From: a virus
Reading direction: 5' to 3' (one strand)
IMG/VR virus record: IMGVR_UViG_3300032208_000014
Coordinates: 1 to 57,328 of that record
DNA length: 57,328 nt
The translations under genes and the position numbers were made by a program. The notes beneath the pieces are model-generated. The model worked only from the letters and a program-made list of their open reading frames with translations, was not told the DNA's origin and searched no databases. Below are positions 37,935-51,813 of this stretch, in pieces; within the stretch, counting starts at the first letter, position 1, and the number at the start of each line of letters is the position of its first letter.

Positions 37935-39839
37935 CTAGCCTACTTCACCCCAGTTGTCACCAAGTTCTTGATCAACTTTGCTAGGAATTTTTAACTCTAG
38001 GCTCGTTTCCATAATCTCTGTAATACGCGATGCCTGTTGCTCGGACTCGACATTGAAGCATAGTTCGTCATGCACCGTGAGCAACGGCACTAGTCCCTCC
38101 TTGTAACACTCTACCATCGCCTGTTTGGTTTGATCGGCTGCCGAACCTTGGATCAATCTGTTCAATGCCTTGTATGTAAACGCACGCTGCAACGGTTGCA
38201 TGGGATATTCTTTACGCGCCTTGTCTAACGGCAGAGGCTTATTGTACCCAAACTTCTTTGGTTCCCACATATCAAATCTGCATAACCTGCCAAGTATCGT
38301 TCTAATCTGTCCGTGGGCATCGGCTCTTTCCGCCACCATGTCCGCCAAGCCTTTAACAAACGGAACCCTGTTATGGTACTGCTTCAATAGGTCTGTAGCT
38401 TCATCTTTGGTGATATCCATCGTGTTTGCCAGCTTGCCCTTGCCCATACCGTACATGATACCAAGGTTTACCGTCTTAGCCTGTTTGCGCGTAATACCTG
38501 CAAGGTCTGCCACCATTTGATGGAAGTCAGCATCCCCTTTCTTGTATTCTTCAACCACTTCATCAATAGCATAGTGCCTTTGATCGTTTGGTAGGGATGC
38601 ACAGTAATGCACCAAGAGCCTCGGTTCTTGGCTCGAATAGTCGAAGCTGCCCCATTTGCACCCATCATCCGGCACAAACAGGCCACGAATCATGGACTTA
38701 ATCTCTGGGTCACGCGCAGGGATTTGCTGGAGGTTTGGATTACTGGACGAAAATCTACCTGTCACAGTTCCGCCATCATCTGACCGCAGTGGATGAAACT
38801 CGCAGTGTATCCGCCCTTTGTACGAGAACTTTAAAATGTTGTCGATGAATGTATTGCTTGCCTTATCTAGTTCGCGCAGCCTAAGTATGCGTCCTGCAAT
38901 CTCATGTGGGTGGTTCTGTAAAAACTCTTTTCTGAAAGACGGCTGTTTAGTGTCTTCTGTCCGGCTGTAGTAAAGACCATAGTGGTCAAATACTTTTGCC
39001 ACACTGGTTGCTACCCACGGCTGTACCTCGATTCCTGTGTCGTGCTTAATGCCCGAAACAAGTTCTTTCTTTGCCTTAATTAAGCCAGCTTTTGCCTGCT
39101 CGGCTTTGTCTAGATCTACAGCCACACCCTTCTCGCGCATGTCAAGCAGGACAGGTATCAACGCTGTTTCAATGTCAAAGATTGTCATCAGGCTCTGCTG
39201 TTCCAAATCGATACGCATCTGGTTCCACAGCTTTAAGGTAAGTTCTGCATCTTTCTCGGCGTATGCACCCACAAAGCTAGAGTTTAGCTTCCACATCTCA
39301 GCCTTGGGGTCGATGCCAAAGTCCGCCGCTGCGGCTCGAAGAGTGCGCTCATCCTTACGCTCGTTCAGATAATCTTTTGCCAGATTGTTCAGGCTGTAGC
39401 TGAAGCGGTTCTCGTTCAGTAGCGGCGCGGCAATCATGGTGTCGATTATCGTGCCTTGAACCTTGACTCCTGCCCACCGTAGCCAGCCAGCATCGTATGT
39501 GGCGTTGTGCATAATTTTAGGAATGTCTGGTGTAGCCAACTGATCCTTCAGCCAAGACATCACACGCTTCTTTGAAATGTTGCCCCCGCCCTCGTGTGCG
39601 ATTGGGTAGTATCCAACAAAGTCACCAGCTGCGATAGCCACACCTACAATAAAGCCATCGCCCCTTGCCCAGCCAGGACCTAGCGTCATGATGTTGGGGT
39701 CACTTGTTTCCAAGTCAATGGCAATGTAATCCGCGTTACGCAGATCAGGGAAGTGGTCAGGTGGGAACCAATCTTTCTCGATTGTGTCCAAGTCCAGCCT
39801 GTTCAGATAACTAATCTGACTGCTTTCTTTCGAGGTCAT
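37935..39839 (-). CDS. DNA polymerase, family A, with 3'-5' exonuclease
   Basis: This 634-residue replicative polymerase shows exonuclease residues in IDLET (D42, E44), HNATYD (D116) and YAEKD (Y193, D197). Polymerase motif A is FDYSSQEPR (D400, E405), motif B RKQAKTVNLGIMYG (R451, K455, Y463) and motif C VHDE (590-592). The position equivalent to E. coli Phe762 is Leu459 (codon CTT at 38463-38465), a variant well known in marine viruses. ATG 39839 is chosen because GGTGGAGAG lies just upstream; an in-frame ATG at 39878 has no site. There is no 5' nuclease domain. It is the last gene of the replication operon. Confidence 0.93.
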   Translation of the reverse strand: MTSKESSQISYLNRLDLDTIEKDWFPPDHFPDLRNADYIAIDLETSDPNIMTLGPGWARGDGFIVGVAIAAGDFVGYYPIAHEGGGNISKKRVMSWLKDQLATPDIPKIMHNATYDAGWLRWAGVKVQGTIIDTMIAAPLLNENRFSYSLNNLAKDYLNERKDERTLRAAAADFGIDPKAEMWKLNSSFVGAYAEKDAELTLKLWNQMRIDLEQQSLMTIFDIETALIPVLLDMREKGVAVDLDKAEQAKAGLIKAKKELVSGIKHDTGIEVQPWVATSVAKVFDHYGLYYSRTEDTKQPSFRKEFLQNHPHEIAGRILRLRELDKASNTFIDNILKFSYKGRIHCEFHPLRSDDGGTVTGRFSSSNPNLQQIPARDPEIKSMIRGLFVPDDGCKWGSFDYSSQEPRLLVHYCASLPNDQRHYAIDEVVEEYKKGDADFHQMVADLAGITRKQAKTVNLGIMYGMGKGKLANTMDITKDEATDLLKQYHNRVPFVKGLADMVAERADAHGQIRTILGRLCRFDMWEPKKFGYNKPLPLDKARKEYPMQPLQRAFTYKALNRLIQGSAADQTKQAMVECYKEGLVPLLTVHDELCFNVESEQQASRITEIMETSLELKIPSKVDQELGDNWGEVG

Positions 39840-40092
39840 ATATCTCTCCACCCAGTGCTGCGTAACCTGCGATATCAACCCATGTGTCTGTATGTTCTGG
39901 GCTGTTAATTAAACGCGATAGTTTCAAAGAAATCATTGCCTGTACGACCTGCGCAACAGTAACTTCTTGTCCGAATATGGGACTCCATAAGTCTGCTACA
40001 CGCTGGAAATTTTCAGCAGCATCACCATAGTCCTCGGCTCTCGGACCATTGACCAGTCCCTCGGCTTTTTCTAGAAGTTCTTTTCTGTTCAT
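39811..40092 (-). CDS. DUF6378-like protein
   Basis: At 93 residues, the conserved phrases LVNGPRAEDYGDAAENFQRV, ADLWSPIFG, MISLKLSRLINSPEHTDTWV and DIAGYAALGGEIY fit the phage family I know as DUF6378 (unverified). The helical build resembles small nucleotide-pool hydrolase folds, but no catalytic set is clear. It is coupled to the helicase upstream (overlap 4 nt) and to polymerase downstream. Confidence 0.75.
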   Translation of the reverse strand: MNRKELLEKAEGLVNGPRAEDYGDAAENFQRVADLWSPIFGQEVTVAQVVQAMISLKLSRLINSPEHTDTWVDIAGYAALGGEIYDLERKQSD

Positions 40093-41609: not shown

Positions 41610-41820
41610 CAACCTTGTCCCGTGGCCTGTTTGCTAACCAATCCTCAACCTCGGAACGCAACCAACGTGTGGTGCTGTTCTGGTCTGCTTCTGGTCCTAG
41701 CACTACTGGCTTTGGGAAATGATCTTGGTCTACCCATCGGTAGATTGTGGAACGGGCAACGCCCAACCAATCTGTCAGGTCACCCACCTTCAGGTAACGA
41801 TCATCAGAATGGGATGTCAT
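41599..41820 (-). CDS. AlpA-like helix-turn-helix regulator
   Basis: At 73 residues, YLKVGDLTDWLGVARSTIYR, WVDQDHFPKPVVLGP and TRWLRSEVEDWLANRPRDK match the AlpA/HTH_17 (MerR-like) winged-helix pattern found in phage regulators and excisionases. Nested inside the replication operon with overlaps on both sides, it may regulate that operon. No integrase gene is present, so a pure excisionase role is unlikely. Confidence 0.8.
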   Translation of the reverse strand: MTSHSDDRYLKVGDLTDWLGVARSTIYRWVDQDHFPKPVVLGPEADQNSTTRWLRSEVEDWLANRPRDKVDAD

Positions 41821-43336
41821 TTTCTATCTCCTTCTTTGGAATATGAACTTCGTTATCGTCAAACTCTGGAACAAACCAAACGCGGACATTTTGCCATCGC
41901 CCTGTCTTGTCATCCTTGAGCTTGTAGTATGTGTTACAGTCACCACCGTTGTTTAAAATCTTCAGTCGTTCCTGTATCTGTGGCCTGTTAAGCTGCACGA
42001 AGTTTCGTGATCGTAAAAACTCTTGCAACCCCTTCATCGTAAAGAACGTCAAATCGTTCTCTGTCCACGGCTTACCAAGCCGTAGTTCTTCTGGTGCTCT
42101 CGCACGAATCCTGCTTGTACAAAAGATTTCCAAAAGTTCTTCAAACTGACCTGTGGTAGTCAGTTCTTTCGGCACCTCAATCGCCGTAGCAGTAGACATC
42201 AGATTGTTTACAAGCTGTTGCCAATCCGCTGGCTTCATGGTCGGAGGCATAAAATCAATTTGCTCCATACACGCACGTTGAAACTGCAACGGCATTTGCA
42301 GTTGTTCAGTAGACAACTCCAACCGCTGACCATTGACATCCAAGAAGTACAGGCGCGGGTCAGACTTCAGAATAGTAAGACCGCCCATAGATGGAGCCGC
42401 AGCGGAACCGCCCACACCATGTTCCATCGTCCGGCATTGGTCACGATTACAATAACTAGACATCGGCTCTTCCTTACATTTGTAGCCGTACTTGTCTTTT
42501 TCGATTGACTTCTGCAACGTGACCACTTCGTCCGCTGGCATCGGTGGTTTACATATCTTCTGGTTCCACGACTCTAGCTTCTTTTTCCAGTCGTCTGGAT
42601 ACTTCTTGCGTAAGAACACACCTGTATGAAACATAGCGTTGTTCCGCATACCCTGTGGTATGCCCATCAATACAAGGTTCTTGATACATGGTATCAGGCC
42701 GTCAAACTCATCGCTCTTAGTCTCAAACTTCAAAGCGTTCAACGCATCCAATGTAGTGCGTTTCTTTTCAATAACCTTCAAGAAATCAAGTAACTCAAGT
42801 TCTTCCCCCTTATCATCAAAAGCATATCGCACAGTGTTCTCGCTATCGAAGTATGGCAGGTTGATAAAGTTACCAACATCGCCACGGTCAGCGAGGATCT
42901 GATCTTGTTTTGGAAATATTTCACAGCCAGAAAAGCCGAGCACCGCAGAGAACTCGGTCAGACAGTCGCGCATGTCTACAGCCCTAATCCACTCTTTTGT
43001 GAACAGGTAGAGATGTGCACCACCAGATTTAGAACGACAAACTACAAACGGTATCTTGAGTTGCTTGCACTTCTTGGCTATCTCGGCATGGTCGATAGGG
43101 TACTTGTCAATGTCCAATACACCGAACTTACACATATTCTTATCATTAATAGGAATTGATCCCACACCTTTTTCACCATTGATATGTTGTGCAATTAACT
43201 CCTTTGTAAGCGGCTGTTTGACGATAAAACTTTTAGCTTCTGTTTTACCATTACGGCGTTGCTGTCCGATTGTGGTTTGACCGTGGGCGGCATCCGATCC
43301 CTCGAATGCCGCCGCAAAACGATCAACAATATCCAT
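41804..43336 (-). CDS. Archaeo-eukaryotic-type primase with SSB-like tail
   Basis: At 510 residues, AEP-type motifs are GVLDIDKY (D75-D77 region) and CRSKSGGAHLYLF (His108), with QDQILADRGDVGNFINLPYF following. A Cys cluster is near residues 285-300 (YKCKEEPMSSYCNRDQC), and a C-terminal helical domain follows. The protein ends EIENDIPF, identical in its last four residues to the SSB of this phage (HEDDIPF) and to E. coli SSB (DDDIPF). It probably makes primers for the family A polymerase. TOTE-type and phage primase-helicase relatives are alternatives, but no helicase motifs are present. Confidence 0.8.
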   Translation of the reverse strand: MDIVDRFAAAFEGSDAAHGQTTIGQQRRNGKTEAKSFIVKQPLTKELIAQHINGEKGVGSIPINDKNMCKFGVLDIDKYPIDHAEIAKKCKQLKIPFVVCRSKSGGAHLYLFTKEWIRAVDMRDCLTEFSAVLGFSGCEIFPKQDQILADRGDVGNFINLPYFDSENTVRYAFDDKGEELELLDFLKVIEKKRTTLDALNALKFETKSDEFDGLIPCIKNLVLMGIPQGMRNNAMFHTGVFLRKKYPDDWKKKLESWNQKICKPPMPADEVVTLQKSIEKDKYGYKCKEEPMSSYCNRDQCRTMEHGVGGSAAAPSMGGLTILKSDPRLYFLDVNGQRLELSTEQLQMPLQFQRACMEQIDFMPPTMKPADWQQLVNNLMSTATAIEVPKELTTTGQFEELLEIFCTSRIRARAPEELRLGKPWTENDLTFFTMKGLQEFLRSRNFVQLNRPQIQERLKILNNGGDCNTYYKLKDDKTGRWQNVRVWFVPEFDDNEVHIPKKEIENDIPF

Positions 43337-43338
43337 GA

Positions 43339-44166
43339 CTAGAACGGAATATCGTCTTCGTGGTCTATGTTGGTGGTTCCTTGCGCGATATCAGAGCCAG
43401 TTGACTCCTCTTCCTGTTGGGCTTTTGCTTCGCCCTTTAGAACCATCTCACGGAACGCTTTTGCCTCTGCAAAGACATTAGCACTGTCAACCTGACCAAT
43501 CCTTGAGATTGACCAAGACGACCAGCTACCACGGTCATTGGACTCGTCAATACCTGTAAAGTTCCACATAATCCCGAACAGCGGTGGGGTACGCATGTTA
43601 CCCTGCGAGTCCGGCAGCTTTTGCATCGCAATTTGTGTCTTCCAACGGCGGCTCACCTTCAGACCTGTAGAACGGAAGTCAATCACAGCCTTTTGTGTAG
43701 TTCCGTCTTCATTGAGGATCATGCAGTAAAAATTGTCAGACTTTACCAACTCACCTTCTACATTGCCGCCTGCGTCCATGACCCATTCCTTCGCACCATC
43801 ACGCTTCACACGCTTCAACAAGGGCTGAAGCTTTGGGTCAGAGAGATTGTATCTTTCATACCCACCTGCGTCAGTCTTAAACGCATAAATAGTTTCTTGG
43901 TGGACTGGAATAACAGTGATGCCTTTCTCTGGATCCCAAATCTGCTTCGTGATGGTGTTATAGATTTCACCCGCACGAAGTTCTTTGATGAAAGCAGGTT
44001 TCGCTTTCTGCATGGCCTCCGACATTGGATGCGCTAGACGGACATACGGGATTTCCATTTCACTAACATCAAAGTTAACACCCGCTCCCTCTTCCTCAAA
44101 CATTGCATCCATAAGATCATTGGTTGCGACAGCGGTTTCTTTTTTCTTTGCTACTTGTGTGCTCAT
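43339..44166 (-). CDS. Single-stranded DNA-binding-like protein
   Basis: At 275 residues, beta-rich core motifs include EIPYVRLAHPMSEAMQK, IYNTITKQIWDPEKGITVIP, and NFYCMILNEDGTTQKAVIDF. A Gln/Glu-rich linker and an acidic tip NIDHEDDIPF follow, the last four residues of which match the tail of bacterial SSB that recruits replication proteins. It likely coats ssDNA. It lies 2 nt upstream of the primase gene. Confidence 0.75.
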   Translation of the reverse strand: MSTQVAKKKETAVATNDLMDAMFEEEGAGVNFDVSEMEIPYVRLAHPMSEAMQKAKPAFIKELRAGEIYNTITKQIWDPEKGITVIPVHQETIYAFKTDAGGYERYNLSDPKLQPLLKRVKRDGAKEWVMDAGGNVEGELVKSDNFYCMILNEDGTTQKAVIDFRSTGLKVSRRWKTQIAMQKLPDSQGNMRTPPLFGIMWNFTGIDESNDRGSWSSWSISRIGQVDSANVFAEAKAFREMVLKGEAKAQQEEESTGSDIAQGTTNIDHEDDIPF

Positions 44167-46475: not shown

Positions 46476-46659
46476 CGGGAAGATGCAGCAAGATTTAAAA
46501 ATGGGACTTTGCCCAAGATGCCGGACAAATATGCCACCCGTAAATGTACACGGGCACACGCAGTGCACTGTATGCCACTTGGTTATAGACGAGTGCTGTC
46601 AAGGCGAAACTGCATCTTGCAACTTTGACACAACAGACAAGGCTGGGTCGCTGTCGTGA
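46453..46659 (+). CDS. Zinc-ribbon miniprotein
   Basis: At 68 residues, two Cys-x2-Cys pairs (LCPRCRTNMPPV and HTQCTVCHLVI) form a zinc ribbon, followed by DECCQGETASC. ATG 46453 has TGGAGA 6 nt upstream (a second ATG at 46447 abuts the site). Found next to SNF2 genes in marine phages, it may help recruit or regulate the helicase, which is inference. Confidence 0.7.
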   Translation: MSQILQGDGKMQQDLKMGLCPRCRTNMPPVNVHGHTQCTVCHLVIDECCQGETASCNFDTTDKAGSLS

Positions 46660-47108
46660 AACTGGAGGTTGTCCCTGTAACTACACGCGAGGCGAATGAG
46701 TTTGTTGCTAATTTTCACAGACACAACAAACCAACTAACGGCGGAAAGTTTTCAATCGGGGCAATTTACGGTGATGAACTTGTCGGAGTTGCTATAGTCG
46801 GGCGACCCGTGGCAAGGATGCTCGATGATGGGTTGACTGTTGAGGTTACCAGAGTTTGCGTTGTAGATCACGCACCCAAAAACACTTGCAGTTTTTTGTA
46901 CGGACGGTGCTGGCGCATCTGGCAACAGATGGGCGGCAAGCGCATGATTACATATACTTTGCAGGAAGAGTCGGGGTCTTCGCTTCGGGGTGCTGGCTGG
47001 AAAATAGTCGGGGAAGTAAAACCCACAGAGCGGGGCTGGGACAGGGATAACCGCAAACGAAATTGGCAACCAATCTACGGACAGATGAAGTTCAGGTGGG
47101 AAGCATGA
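46656..47108 (+). CDS. XF1762-family protein (GNAT-like)
   Basis: At 150 residues from GTG 46656, overlapping the previous stop (GTGA). Key phrases FVANFHRHNKPTNGGKFSIG, VGVAIVGRPVARMLDDG, VEVTRVCVVD and TYTLQEESGSSLRGAGWKIV fit the XF1762 family of phage and prophage proteins, predicted to be acyltransferases with a role in modifying DNA or protecting it. Found beside a PP-loop reductase-like gene here and in other phages. Confidence 0.8.
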   Translation: MKLEVVPVTTREANEFVANFHRHNKPTNGGKFSIGAIYGDELVGVAIVGRPVARMLDDGLTVEVTRVCVVDHAPKNTCSFLYGRCWRIWQQMGGKRMITYTLQEESGSSLRGAGWKIVGEVKPTERGWDRDNRKRNWQPIYGQMKFRWEA

Positions 47109-47887
47109 TTTTATCTTGGTGGTCGGCAGGCGTGACCAGCGCGGTAGCAACTAAACTTGCAATCGACAAATACGGGAAAGACAGAGTGCTGCCCGTCTAC
47201 TTCCATATCGACTCGGCTCACCCAGACAACGAGCGGTTCATTCGGGAGTGCGAGGAGTGGTATGGTCGGGACATCATGATCACCAAGTCGCACAAGCATA
47301 ACAACCAGTTCGAGGTCATCGAGAAAGACAAGTATGTAAACGGTCCTGGGGGTGCACGCTGCACTCTGGTTTTGAAGAAACGGGTTCGGGAGCGGATTGA
47401 ACGGGAGATGGAGTATGAGGCACAGGTCTTCGGGTTCGAGTTTTCCAAGAAAGAAGTCAATCGGGCGGTGCGGTTCAAGGAACAATATCCTGGGTCAAAG
47501 CCCATCTTTCCGCTCATCGAGAAGAAGCTGACCAAGCCGGAGTGTCTGTATTATCTTGAGGCGGCTGGCATCGAGCGACCAGAAATGTATAAGCTTGGCT
47601 ACGGCAACAATAACTGCATCGGTTGCGTAAAAGGCGGCAAAGGGTACTGGAATAAAATCCGCAAAGACTTCCCCGAATATTTTGACCGCATGGCTGCAGC
47701 AGAGCGGCTGGTTGGTAACTCATGCCTGCGTGGTGTGTATCTGGACGAGCTAGATCCAAACTCTGGACACAAGCAGAATTATGTCATGCCTGACTGCGGA
47801 AACTTTTGTGAAATAGAATTTGCAGATATCATGCACAAAGATATAGACTTAATAATGAAGCAACCAGAACAGTTGAGTTTATTCTAA
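47105..47887 (+). CDS. PP-loop (PAPS reductase-like) protein with C-terminal clamp motif
   Basis: At 260 residues, the PP-loop ATP-pyrophosphatase signature is SWWSAGVTSAVATK (residues 4-17), with HIDSAHPDNERF after it. Cys pairs in NNNCIGCVKGG and MPDCGNFCEIEF suggest an Fe-S or zinc site. The last five residues are QLSLF, the consensus peptide by which proteins bind the bacterial beta sliding clamp. ATG 47105 overlaps the previous stop. PP-loop enzymes of this type act in sulfur chemistry, including DNA phosphorothioation; a DNA-modifying role is likely but unproven. Confidence 0.85.
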   Translation: MILSWWSAGVTSAVATKLAIDKYGKDRVLPVYFHIDSAHPDNERFIRECEEWYGRDIMITKSHKHNNQFEVIEKDKYVNGPGGARCTLVLKKRVRERIEREMEYEAQVFGFEFSKKEVNRAVRFKEQYPGSKPIFPLIEKKLTKPECLYYLEAAGIERPEMYKLGYGNNNCIGCVKGGKGYWNKIRKDFPEYFDRMAAAERLVGNSCLRGVYLDELDPNSGHKQNYVMPDCGNFCEIEFADIMHKDIDLIMKQPEQLSLF

Positions 47888-50578: not shown

Positions 50579-50684
50579 TTTTACCTCCGTAAATTTGAAA
50601 CCAATGGTCAGTGCAGTACGCCCGATTTCCATCGAGCGCATCCGCCTTTTTATCGCATTTATCGCATTTTCTGATACTAAGCAT
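50481..50684 (-). CDS. Small Cys-rich protein after the methyltransferase
   Basis: At 67 residues, ATG 50684 overlaps the methyltransferase stop. It reads MLSIRKCDKCDKKADALDGN, RAYCTDHWFQIYGGK. Cys-x2-Cys followed by a Cys-x2-His suggests a treble-clef-like zinc site. The second half overlaps 50390-50578 in another frame and looks less protein-like, so the true end may differ. Confidence 0.5.
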   Translation of the reverse strand: MLSIRKCDKCDKKADALDGNRAYCTDHWFQIYGGKNGKSQGMADGYGRGRDGHEPRSVGREAWYVVR

Positions 50685-51813
50685 TCATCCCCCTCATCAA
50701 GTGACAGATAACATCAACCGTCCATCCATTACCAAGCATACGATACCGCTGGGTATTTGACACATGATTTGTGTAATTTTCTGGAACGGTCTGTAAACGC
50801 TCACATTCTAAAGGCGTAAGCTTACGCCATTGAAGCTGGTCAATGTCAGCCACAATGCTGTCCTTATATATGGTGGACAGACAATTCGACTTCTCATCTT
50901 CTCGCACCTCGACCCTTGATTTGAGGGGAATGGACTTGTCGTTATCTTTGCGCTTGCCATTCTCATCGAGCCTGCGTTTCACGATCCTCGCACCTCGAAG
51001 CAACACTTTTGGTTCAAGATTGCCACCAGATGCCGCGCACAAACTTGGGGCTTTGCCGTCTGGATCATAAACCCTGCGATTATAATCGTGACCCTTCAAG
51101 TCTGCGTGCCCAGCCAATATCAAGCCTGTGCCATCCAACTCCATGTCGAACACAAGCTGTCTGCGATTTTTCTGAAAATATGACTTCAGATTACCGCCCT
51201 TGAAATAGTTCGCATCTATGCAATGCGACTTGTCACGGTCAGTCCAGCCATCTTCGAGAATATCTTTGAGCATGATATTTCGGTTGCGTGGTGCACCCTC
51301 GACAGGGATGTTTGTCCAATACAGGCGGTCACGATTTTGCGCTGACACCAGATTAGAATTTATCCTGATAGGTTCGACCCCAAGCTGACTGGAAATTACA
51401 TCCTGATATTCCTGTTTCATATTAACATTCTCAAGCAGGAAATATTTTGGCTTCAACTCCCTCAACAGGCGCACATATTCAAAAAACAATTTACTGCGTG
51501 GGTCGTCAAAGTTCAGTTGCTTGCCAGCAAACGAAAACCCCTGACAGGGCGAACCGCCAATCAATATGTCTATCGTGTGTCGAAAGAAACCCTTTTCGAG
51601 GTCAACACCATTATGAGCGACACACAAACGCCCATCCTTGGTTTTAAGTTTGGTCACATCGCCCATGTGTATCGTGTCAGGATAATTGGCCTTCGCAACT
51701 TGGATTGCATATTTGTCAATTTCTGACGCGAAATAATTTTCGACCTTGAAGCCGCACCGCTCAAGAGCGATGCGACCACAAGACATTCCATCAAATAAAC
51801 TAAGAACGTTCAT
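50677..51813 (-). CDS. DNA (cytosine-5) methyltransferase
   Basis: At 378 residues, it shows motif I LSLFDGMSCGRIALERCGF, motif IV GGSPCQGFSFAG with catalytic Cys90, motif VI LLENVN, motif VIII QNRDRLYWTN, motif IX KLTPLECERLQTVPENYT and motif X YRMLGNGWTVDVICHL. All parts of an active Dcm/DNMT-type enzyme are present. The target-recognition region is about residues 185-310. It probably methylates phage DNA against host restriction; no restriction enzyme is beside it. Confidence 0.9.
   Translation of the reverse strand: MNVLSLFDGMSCGRIALERCGFKVENYFASEIDKYAIQVAKANYPDTIHMGDVTKLKTKDGRLCVAHNGVDLEKGFFRHTIDILIGGSPCQGFSFAGKQLNFDDPRSKLFFEYVRLLRELKPKYFLLENVNMKQEYQDVISSQLGVEPIRINSNLVSAQNRDRLYWTNIPVEGAPRNRNIMLKDILEDGWTDRDKSHCIDANYFKGGNLKSYFQKNRRQLVFDMELDGTGLILAGHADLKGHDYNRRVYDPDGKAPSLCAASGGNLEPKVLLRGARIVKRRLDENGKRKDNDKSIPLKSRVEVREDEKSNCLSTIYKDSIVADIDQLQWRKLTPLECERLQTVPENYTNHVSNTQRYRMLGNGWTVDVICHLMRGMNA

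Follow-up and report, generated by a model that had tools for sequence, protein, structure and literature searches.

A phage PP-loop protein with a clamp-type C-terminal tail: a putative DNA sulfur-modification enzyme that may dock on the host replication ring

Bacteria dock proteins on the beta sliding clamp, the ring that follows DNA replication, by means of C-terminal peptides of the QLxLF type. Such a peptide ends a PP-loop protein encoded in the DNA analysed here, IMG/VR virus record IMGVR_UViG_3300032208_000014 (positions 1 to 57,328; this entire 57,328-nucleotide stretch is called the window). Among enzymes that modify DNA, DpdA puts 7-deazaguanine into it, and SspD of Ssp DNA phosphorothioation (PADLOC PDLC02782) and, by analogy, DndC are PP-loop enzymes. 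By what means phages achieve DNA modification that is quick and full enough while they replicate is an open question. The DNA of Pantoea phage MED16 contains 2'-deoxy-7-amido-7-deazaguanosine (dADG) (PMC8306585). C-terminal QLxLF peptides of transposases bind beta, and mutation of Q1/F5 or Q1/L4 abolishes the binding (PMC4549789). The DNA methyltransferase DNMT1 binds PCNA (PMC9690074). We propose, with a probability of roughly 0.55, that the PP-loop protein of the window is a phage DNA sulfur-modification enzyme, similar to SspD and to the Vibrio-phage protein PptA, which has acquired a peptide for docking on the host clamp.

The gene starts with the ATG at 47105, ends with the stop codon at 47885-47887 and specifies a product of 260 amino acids, MILSWWSAGVTSAVA...MKQPEQLSLF, with the following features:

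47105..47887, + strand: PP-loop (PAPS-reductase-fold) protein, phrog_424/PptA family, 260 amino acids, ending QLSLF
47123..47140, + strand: PP-loop motif S7-A-G-V-T-S12 (SxGxxS)
47360..47362, + strand: Cys86 of the RCT motif
47615..47626, + strand: C171-x-x-C174 in GYGNNNCIGCVKGG
47795..47809, + strand: C231-xxx-C235
47870..47884, + strand: C-terminal clamp-binding-type pentapeptide Q256-L-S-L-F260, supported by sequence, conservation and codon variation

An earlier note on this DNA had matched the last residues to the beta-clamp-binding consensus, and the match is exact: QLSLF occupies residues 256-260, at the very C-terminus, and fits the QL(S/D)LF consensus. No other protein of the window has a strong clamp-like C-terminus. 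Judged from residue frequencies, QL[SDN]LF is expected at the C-terminus with a frequency of 1.7e-6 per protein, or about 1.5e-4 over the approximately 90 genes. A chance origin of the tail is very unlikely.

We next asked how far the tail is conserved among relatives collected from cultured phages as well as from viral contigs and bacterial genomes. All complete relatives that share at least 84% identity with the protein finish in QLSLF, QLNLF or QLMLF. At 66-77% identity, most finish in QLQLI, QLKLI, QLRLL, QLRLF or QLSFM. Two sub-branches have lost the motif; both Q1 and L4 are missing from branches with the ends KLRKI, KLMEI, LMRGI or bare EKL. The motif, whose absence from close homologues the earlier note had named as grounds for rejecting its idea, is thus found in every close homologue and in the majority of those at 66-77% identity. 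At both Leu positions synonymous codons differ between relatives and Leu is kept. Among labelled relatives of at least 66% identity (the window protein's own row is unlabelled), Q1 and L4 are both present in 57 of 76 and both absent in the other 19, with no mixed case; on the tree this pattern needs only 3 changes. Joint keeping or loss is consistent with a joint function of the two residues. Below about 62% identity, PP-loop relatives have no such tail. Since it is also lost in some nearer branches, the clamp-type tail is a lineage-specific add-on to the PP-loop core.

The core itself is of the PptA family and is similar to SspD. The protein matches phrog_424 (3.9e-47) and Pfam PAPS_reduct (6e-6), and a profile comparison aligns residues 1-236 with PptA (PDB 21fy) at E=2e-93. 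The PADLOC SspD model matches residues 32-201 at E=1.2e-7, and it matches the VH-5 relative at 1.5e-11. An AlphaFold model (predicted local distance difference test, pLDDT, 90.5) has PAPS/APS reductases as its nearest PDB folds (Z 11.6-13.2). Next come GMP synthetases and [4Fe-4S] PP-loop thiolases, TtuA and NcsA among them. Across 67 homologues S7, G9, S12, C86, C171, C174, C231 and C235 are unchanged, and C231/C235 together with C171/C174 could possibly form an Fe-S ligand set. Residues 224-231, ahead of the tail, are modelled at pLDDT below 50. A literature search found no paper on PptA, and our reading of its name as "phage phosphorothioate" is a guess. Two observations concern other PP-loop proteins. 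A different family (SFSGGRTS...) lies near dpdA in several contigs (L248 1644-2504, L273 5046-5864, L276 690-1547), and its L273 member matches SspD at 7e-14 and BrxP at 9e-7. A tail-less relative, L162 3923-4747, encoded right after a DNA methyltransferase gene, begins with MAKAPEQPALFDLSP, a possible N-terminal clamp motif.

Is the tail peculiar to this family? In an unbiased scan, a strict C-terminal clamp regular expression was applied to 2,915 distinct open reading frames from the collected related loci. Only two families had more than one match: the PP-loop family (50 of 145) and a second one, phrog_887 (18 of 58). The other 95 families with at least four members gave a single match in total, a DNA methyltransferase. 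Small families, which serve as background, matched in 5 of 1969 cases, and two of those five resemble DNA methyltransferases by their start or by a Pfam match. Methyltransferases that adjoin these genes have the C-termini QYSLF, QLDLFVPQPVAI and QITLFDLGMERI; a locus scan with the methyltransferase of L230 yielded 4 loci only. An apparent fusion of PP-loop and methyltransferase genes in L163 was discarded, as it spans a run of N and the two genes are separate in L151, which is closely related. The protein at L172 6704-7375 (- strand), judged by eye to be SRAP/YedK-like with MCGRFYVDEG close to the start, has another possible clamp motif in its last residues, QQSLFLT.

The second family, phrog_887, is annotated as queuine tRNA-ribosyltransferase, its neighbours are mostly a Vut_1/queuosine-precursor (preQ0-type) transporter, and the DpdA of phage MED16 is a relative. 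Because of this annotation, these neighbours and this homologue, we call the family phage DpdA. Foldseek with a DpdA-like model (pLDDT 77) against PDB retrieved no tRNA-guanine transglycosylase. DpdA tails differ in sequence and length and retain Q-x-[SDEG]-[LM]-[FLI], as in QMGLFE, QMEMFA, QQDMFAA, QQSLFT and QLSLIDD. The motif occurs in 9 of 23 DpdA clusters, compared with 0.2 expected from shuffled tails, and the last residues of the DpdA model are disordered (pLDDT below 50). MED16's own DpdA is without the motif. In other cultured phages, DpdA-like proteins end in PEQMELIA (Pam5), PEQMELAS (RHph_N3_2), PEQLELVD (Mae-JY30), QLGLSF (Athena1) and QLQLAV (BTP1), all of them possible pentapeptide or hexapeptide clamp motifs. 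Such proteins from cultured phages with named hosts are located as follows:

L303 1989-2681: DpdA-like protein
L304 2001-2681: DpdA-like protein
L305 2001-2681: DpdA-like protein
L307 2001-2747: DpdA-like protein
L308 2001-2756: DpdA-like protein

The two tailed families also meet in two of the loci: in L002 the PP-loop gene is immediately preceded by dpdA, and in L008 mom stands between dpdA and the PP-loop gene. Directly upstream of dpdA itself, many loci encode small uncharacterised proteins (for example, L213 3675-4001 and L229 3762-4001), for which Pfam gave no match (families of 19 and 8 members).

Within the window, the surroundings of the PP-loop gene contain further DNA-modification genes and part of a replication module:

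46656..47108, + strand: Mom-like DNA-modification protein (Pfam Mom, phrog_1384, XF1762 family)
50677..51813, - strand: C5-cytosine DNA methyltransferase, 3 kb from the PP-loop gene
37935..39878, - strand: phage family-A DNA polymerase

The start of the PP-loop gene overlaps the mom-like gene by ATGA, and its junction with the next gene is TAATG. Mom and the PP-loop protein do not in general form a dedicated pair: the two genes adjoin in only part of the window's own lineage, and elsewhere the place of mom is held by dpdA, dcm, methyltransferases or unrelated genes. In L028/L078, L037 and L038, the gene immediately upstream of the PP-loop gene encodes a relative of the C5-cytosine methyltransferase. 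Overall, DNA-base-modification genes (mom, dcm, dpdA, methyltransferases) occupy position -1 in 12 of 135 distinct loci; four to six genes away they account for 7 of 542 (about 1%). The phage also encodes a primase and a helicase. In this replication module, the adjacent proteins 43339-44166 (- strand; phrog_2402, unknown) and 41804-43336 (- strand; the primase) end in DHEDDIPF and ENDIPF, resembling the acidic tail, DDDIPF, with which bacterial SSB recruits replication proteins.

The earlier note had gone on to suggest replication-coupled DNA modification, an idea that is partly supported by these results. It is strengthened by the similarity of the core to SspD and PptA, by the modification genes just upstream of the PP-loop gene, by the independent clamp-like tails of the DpdA family and by those of several DNA methyltransferases. 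In the mechanism that we envisage, the PP-loop ATP-pyrophosphatase fold and the conserved cysteines would activate a substrate and transfer sulfur, as expected at the level of the family. The lineage-added tail ending QLxL(F/I/L) would insert into the hydrophobic pocket with which the host beta clamp binds peptides, and docking would keep the enzyme on newly replicated DNA. Phage DNA could then be marked during synthesis, before it is attacked by restriction or nuclease systems of the host. The binding to the clamp, a chemistry like that of phosphorothioation and the timing at the fork are all predicted features of this enzyme. The clamp would be the host's, as the earlier note had assumed: searches of the window for clamps of the DnaN, gp45 and PCNA types found none, the one for gp45 having been run without a positive control. 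Nor did a clamp chain belonging to PDB 21fy come up among the entries covered, which included a subset of those in the large groups of E. coli clamps.

Several observations weigh against this proposal. PptA ends shortly after its last conserved cysteine, without a QLxLF tail; as PptA and relatives below about 62% identity are tail-less, the core activity does not need the tail. Among clusters of the PP-loop family at 75% identity, only 3 of 60 have the motif, so that it seems to have one or few origins in this family and to have spread mostly by shared ancestry. The test for Q1-L4 coupling cannot reach significance, as there are too few independent pairs or changes. Mom and Dcm families and neighbours are without a clamp tail, and SspB, SspC and Dnd (DndD/DndE) partners were not found among the ten window proteins scanned. 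Moreover, the phage carries its own family-A polymerase and so does not depend on the host's Pol III as its polymerase; the host clamp may therefore not be loaded on phage DNA. Finally, the QLSLF tail is predicted as a short helix (pLDDT 83-87) rather than as disorder, and positions 2 and 5 remain hydrophobic in branches that lack Q1 and L4 (KLRKI, LMRGI). Part of the tail pattern may therefore serve packing.

The last two points raise the question of whether the C-terminal residues do nothing but pack the last helix on the core, with the clamp likeness arising incidentally from a helix that ends in PxxLxxI. The helical model of the tail and the persistence of L2 and of a hydrophobic residue 5 speak for this. 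However, packing leaves unexplained the joint keeping or loss of Q1 and L4, the exact QLSLF/QLNLF consensus and the same motif on the disordered tail of an unrelated fold, DpdA, and we consider it unlikely. Alternatively, the motif might bind the host clamp in order to disturb the replication of the host or to hold the protein near the host chromosome, the PP-loop chemistry being a separate matter. Blockers of replication that occupy the clamp pocket are known, the toxin SocB being one (PMC9690074), and a phage with its own polymerase can afford to block Pol III. Yet the same tails occur on DpdA and on DNA methyltransferases, whose substrate is DNA, which argues for targeting of modification rather than for inhibition; such host takeover therefore appears improbable.

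The chemistry can be questioned as well. The enzyme might modify tRNA, a nucleotide or a cofactor, as TtuA, LarE or YcfA-like proteins do, in which case any clamp docking would be incidental. Its fold is indeed also near the tRNA thiolases TtuA/NcsA and YcfA. However, among curated profiles SspD comes nearest, DNA-base-modification genes are enriched immediately upstream, and a tRNA enzyme would have no evident use for a clamp tail, all of which makes this possibility rather improbable. An assimilatory PAPS reductase, acting as an auxiliary metabolic gene that supplies sulfite, would agree with the fold and the Pfam domain. The earlier note's description "PAPS-reductase-like" thus holds for the fold, as seen in the Pfam and phrog_424 matches and in the model, but not for CysH function. 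The catalytic ECGLH motif of CysH is not present in the protein, whose C-terminal cysteines read DCGNFC and are followed by the tail. Five other cysteines are invariant instead, and no NCBIfam model, that of CysH included, matches the protein. A role in sulfite supply is accordingly very improbable.

Returning to clamp-docked DNA modification, we suggest tentatively, at somewhat less than even odds, a broader generalization: phages would have repeatedly fitted host-clamp peptides to unrelated DNA-modification enzymes (PptA-like proteins, DpdA and some methyltransferases), coupling hypermodification to replication, as a bacterial-virus counterpart of DNMT1-PCNA. Because relatives keep the tail and a second, unrelated DNA-modifying family has a tail of the same kind, some phages may mark their new DNA by riding the host replication ring. 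If true, the presence of a clamp peptide in two families of phage DNA-modifying enzymes that are not related to each other would be a simple answer to the question of speed and completeness, and the host clamp would be a shared recruitment platform. An unannotated phage "PAPS reductase" would also gain a likely role in DNA modification instead of sulfur metabolism.

Among known systems, PptA (same sequence region as vB_VhaP_VH-5 QGH73774) is homologous to residues 1-236 and shares the PP-loop, RCT and GYNNNNCxGCVKGG motifs; it differs in the missing tail. SspD is a PP-loop enzyme too, but the phage gene stands alone, with no SspB, SspC or Dnd partner among the ten window proteins scanned, and its product has a clamp-type tail. 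Phage DpdA likewise modifies DNA and carries a C-terminal Q-x-x-[LM]-[FLI] tail, but its fold and chemistry are unrelated, and it is absent from the window. IS-family transposases are also mobile-element enzymes that reach the host clamp through a C-terminal QLxLF peptide (PMC4549789); their clamp binding is experimental, whereas here it is sequence-based, and they carry out transposition, not base or backbone modification. The DNMT1-PCNA pair is eukaryotic, uses a PCNA-binding motif and performs maintenance methylation, but the principle is the one proposed here: a clamp-binding peptide recruits a DNA-modifying enzyme to new DNA (PMC9690074).
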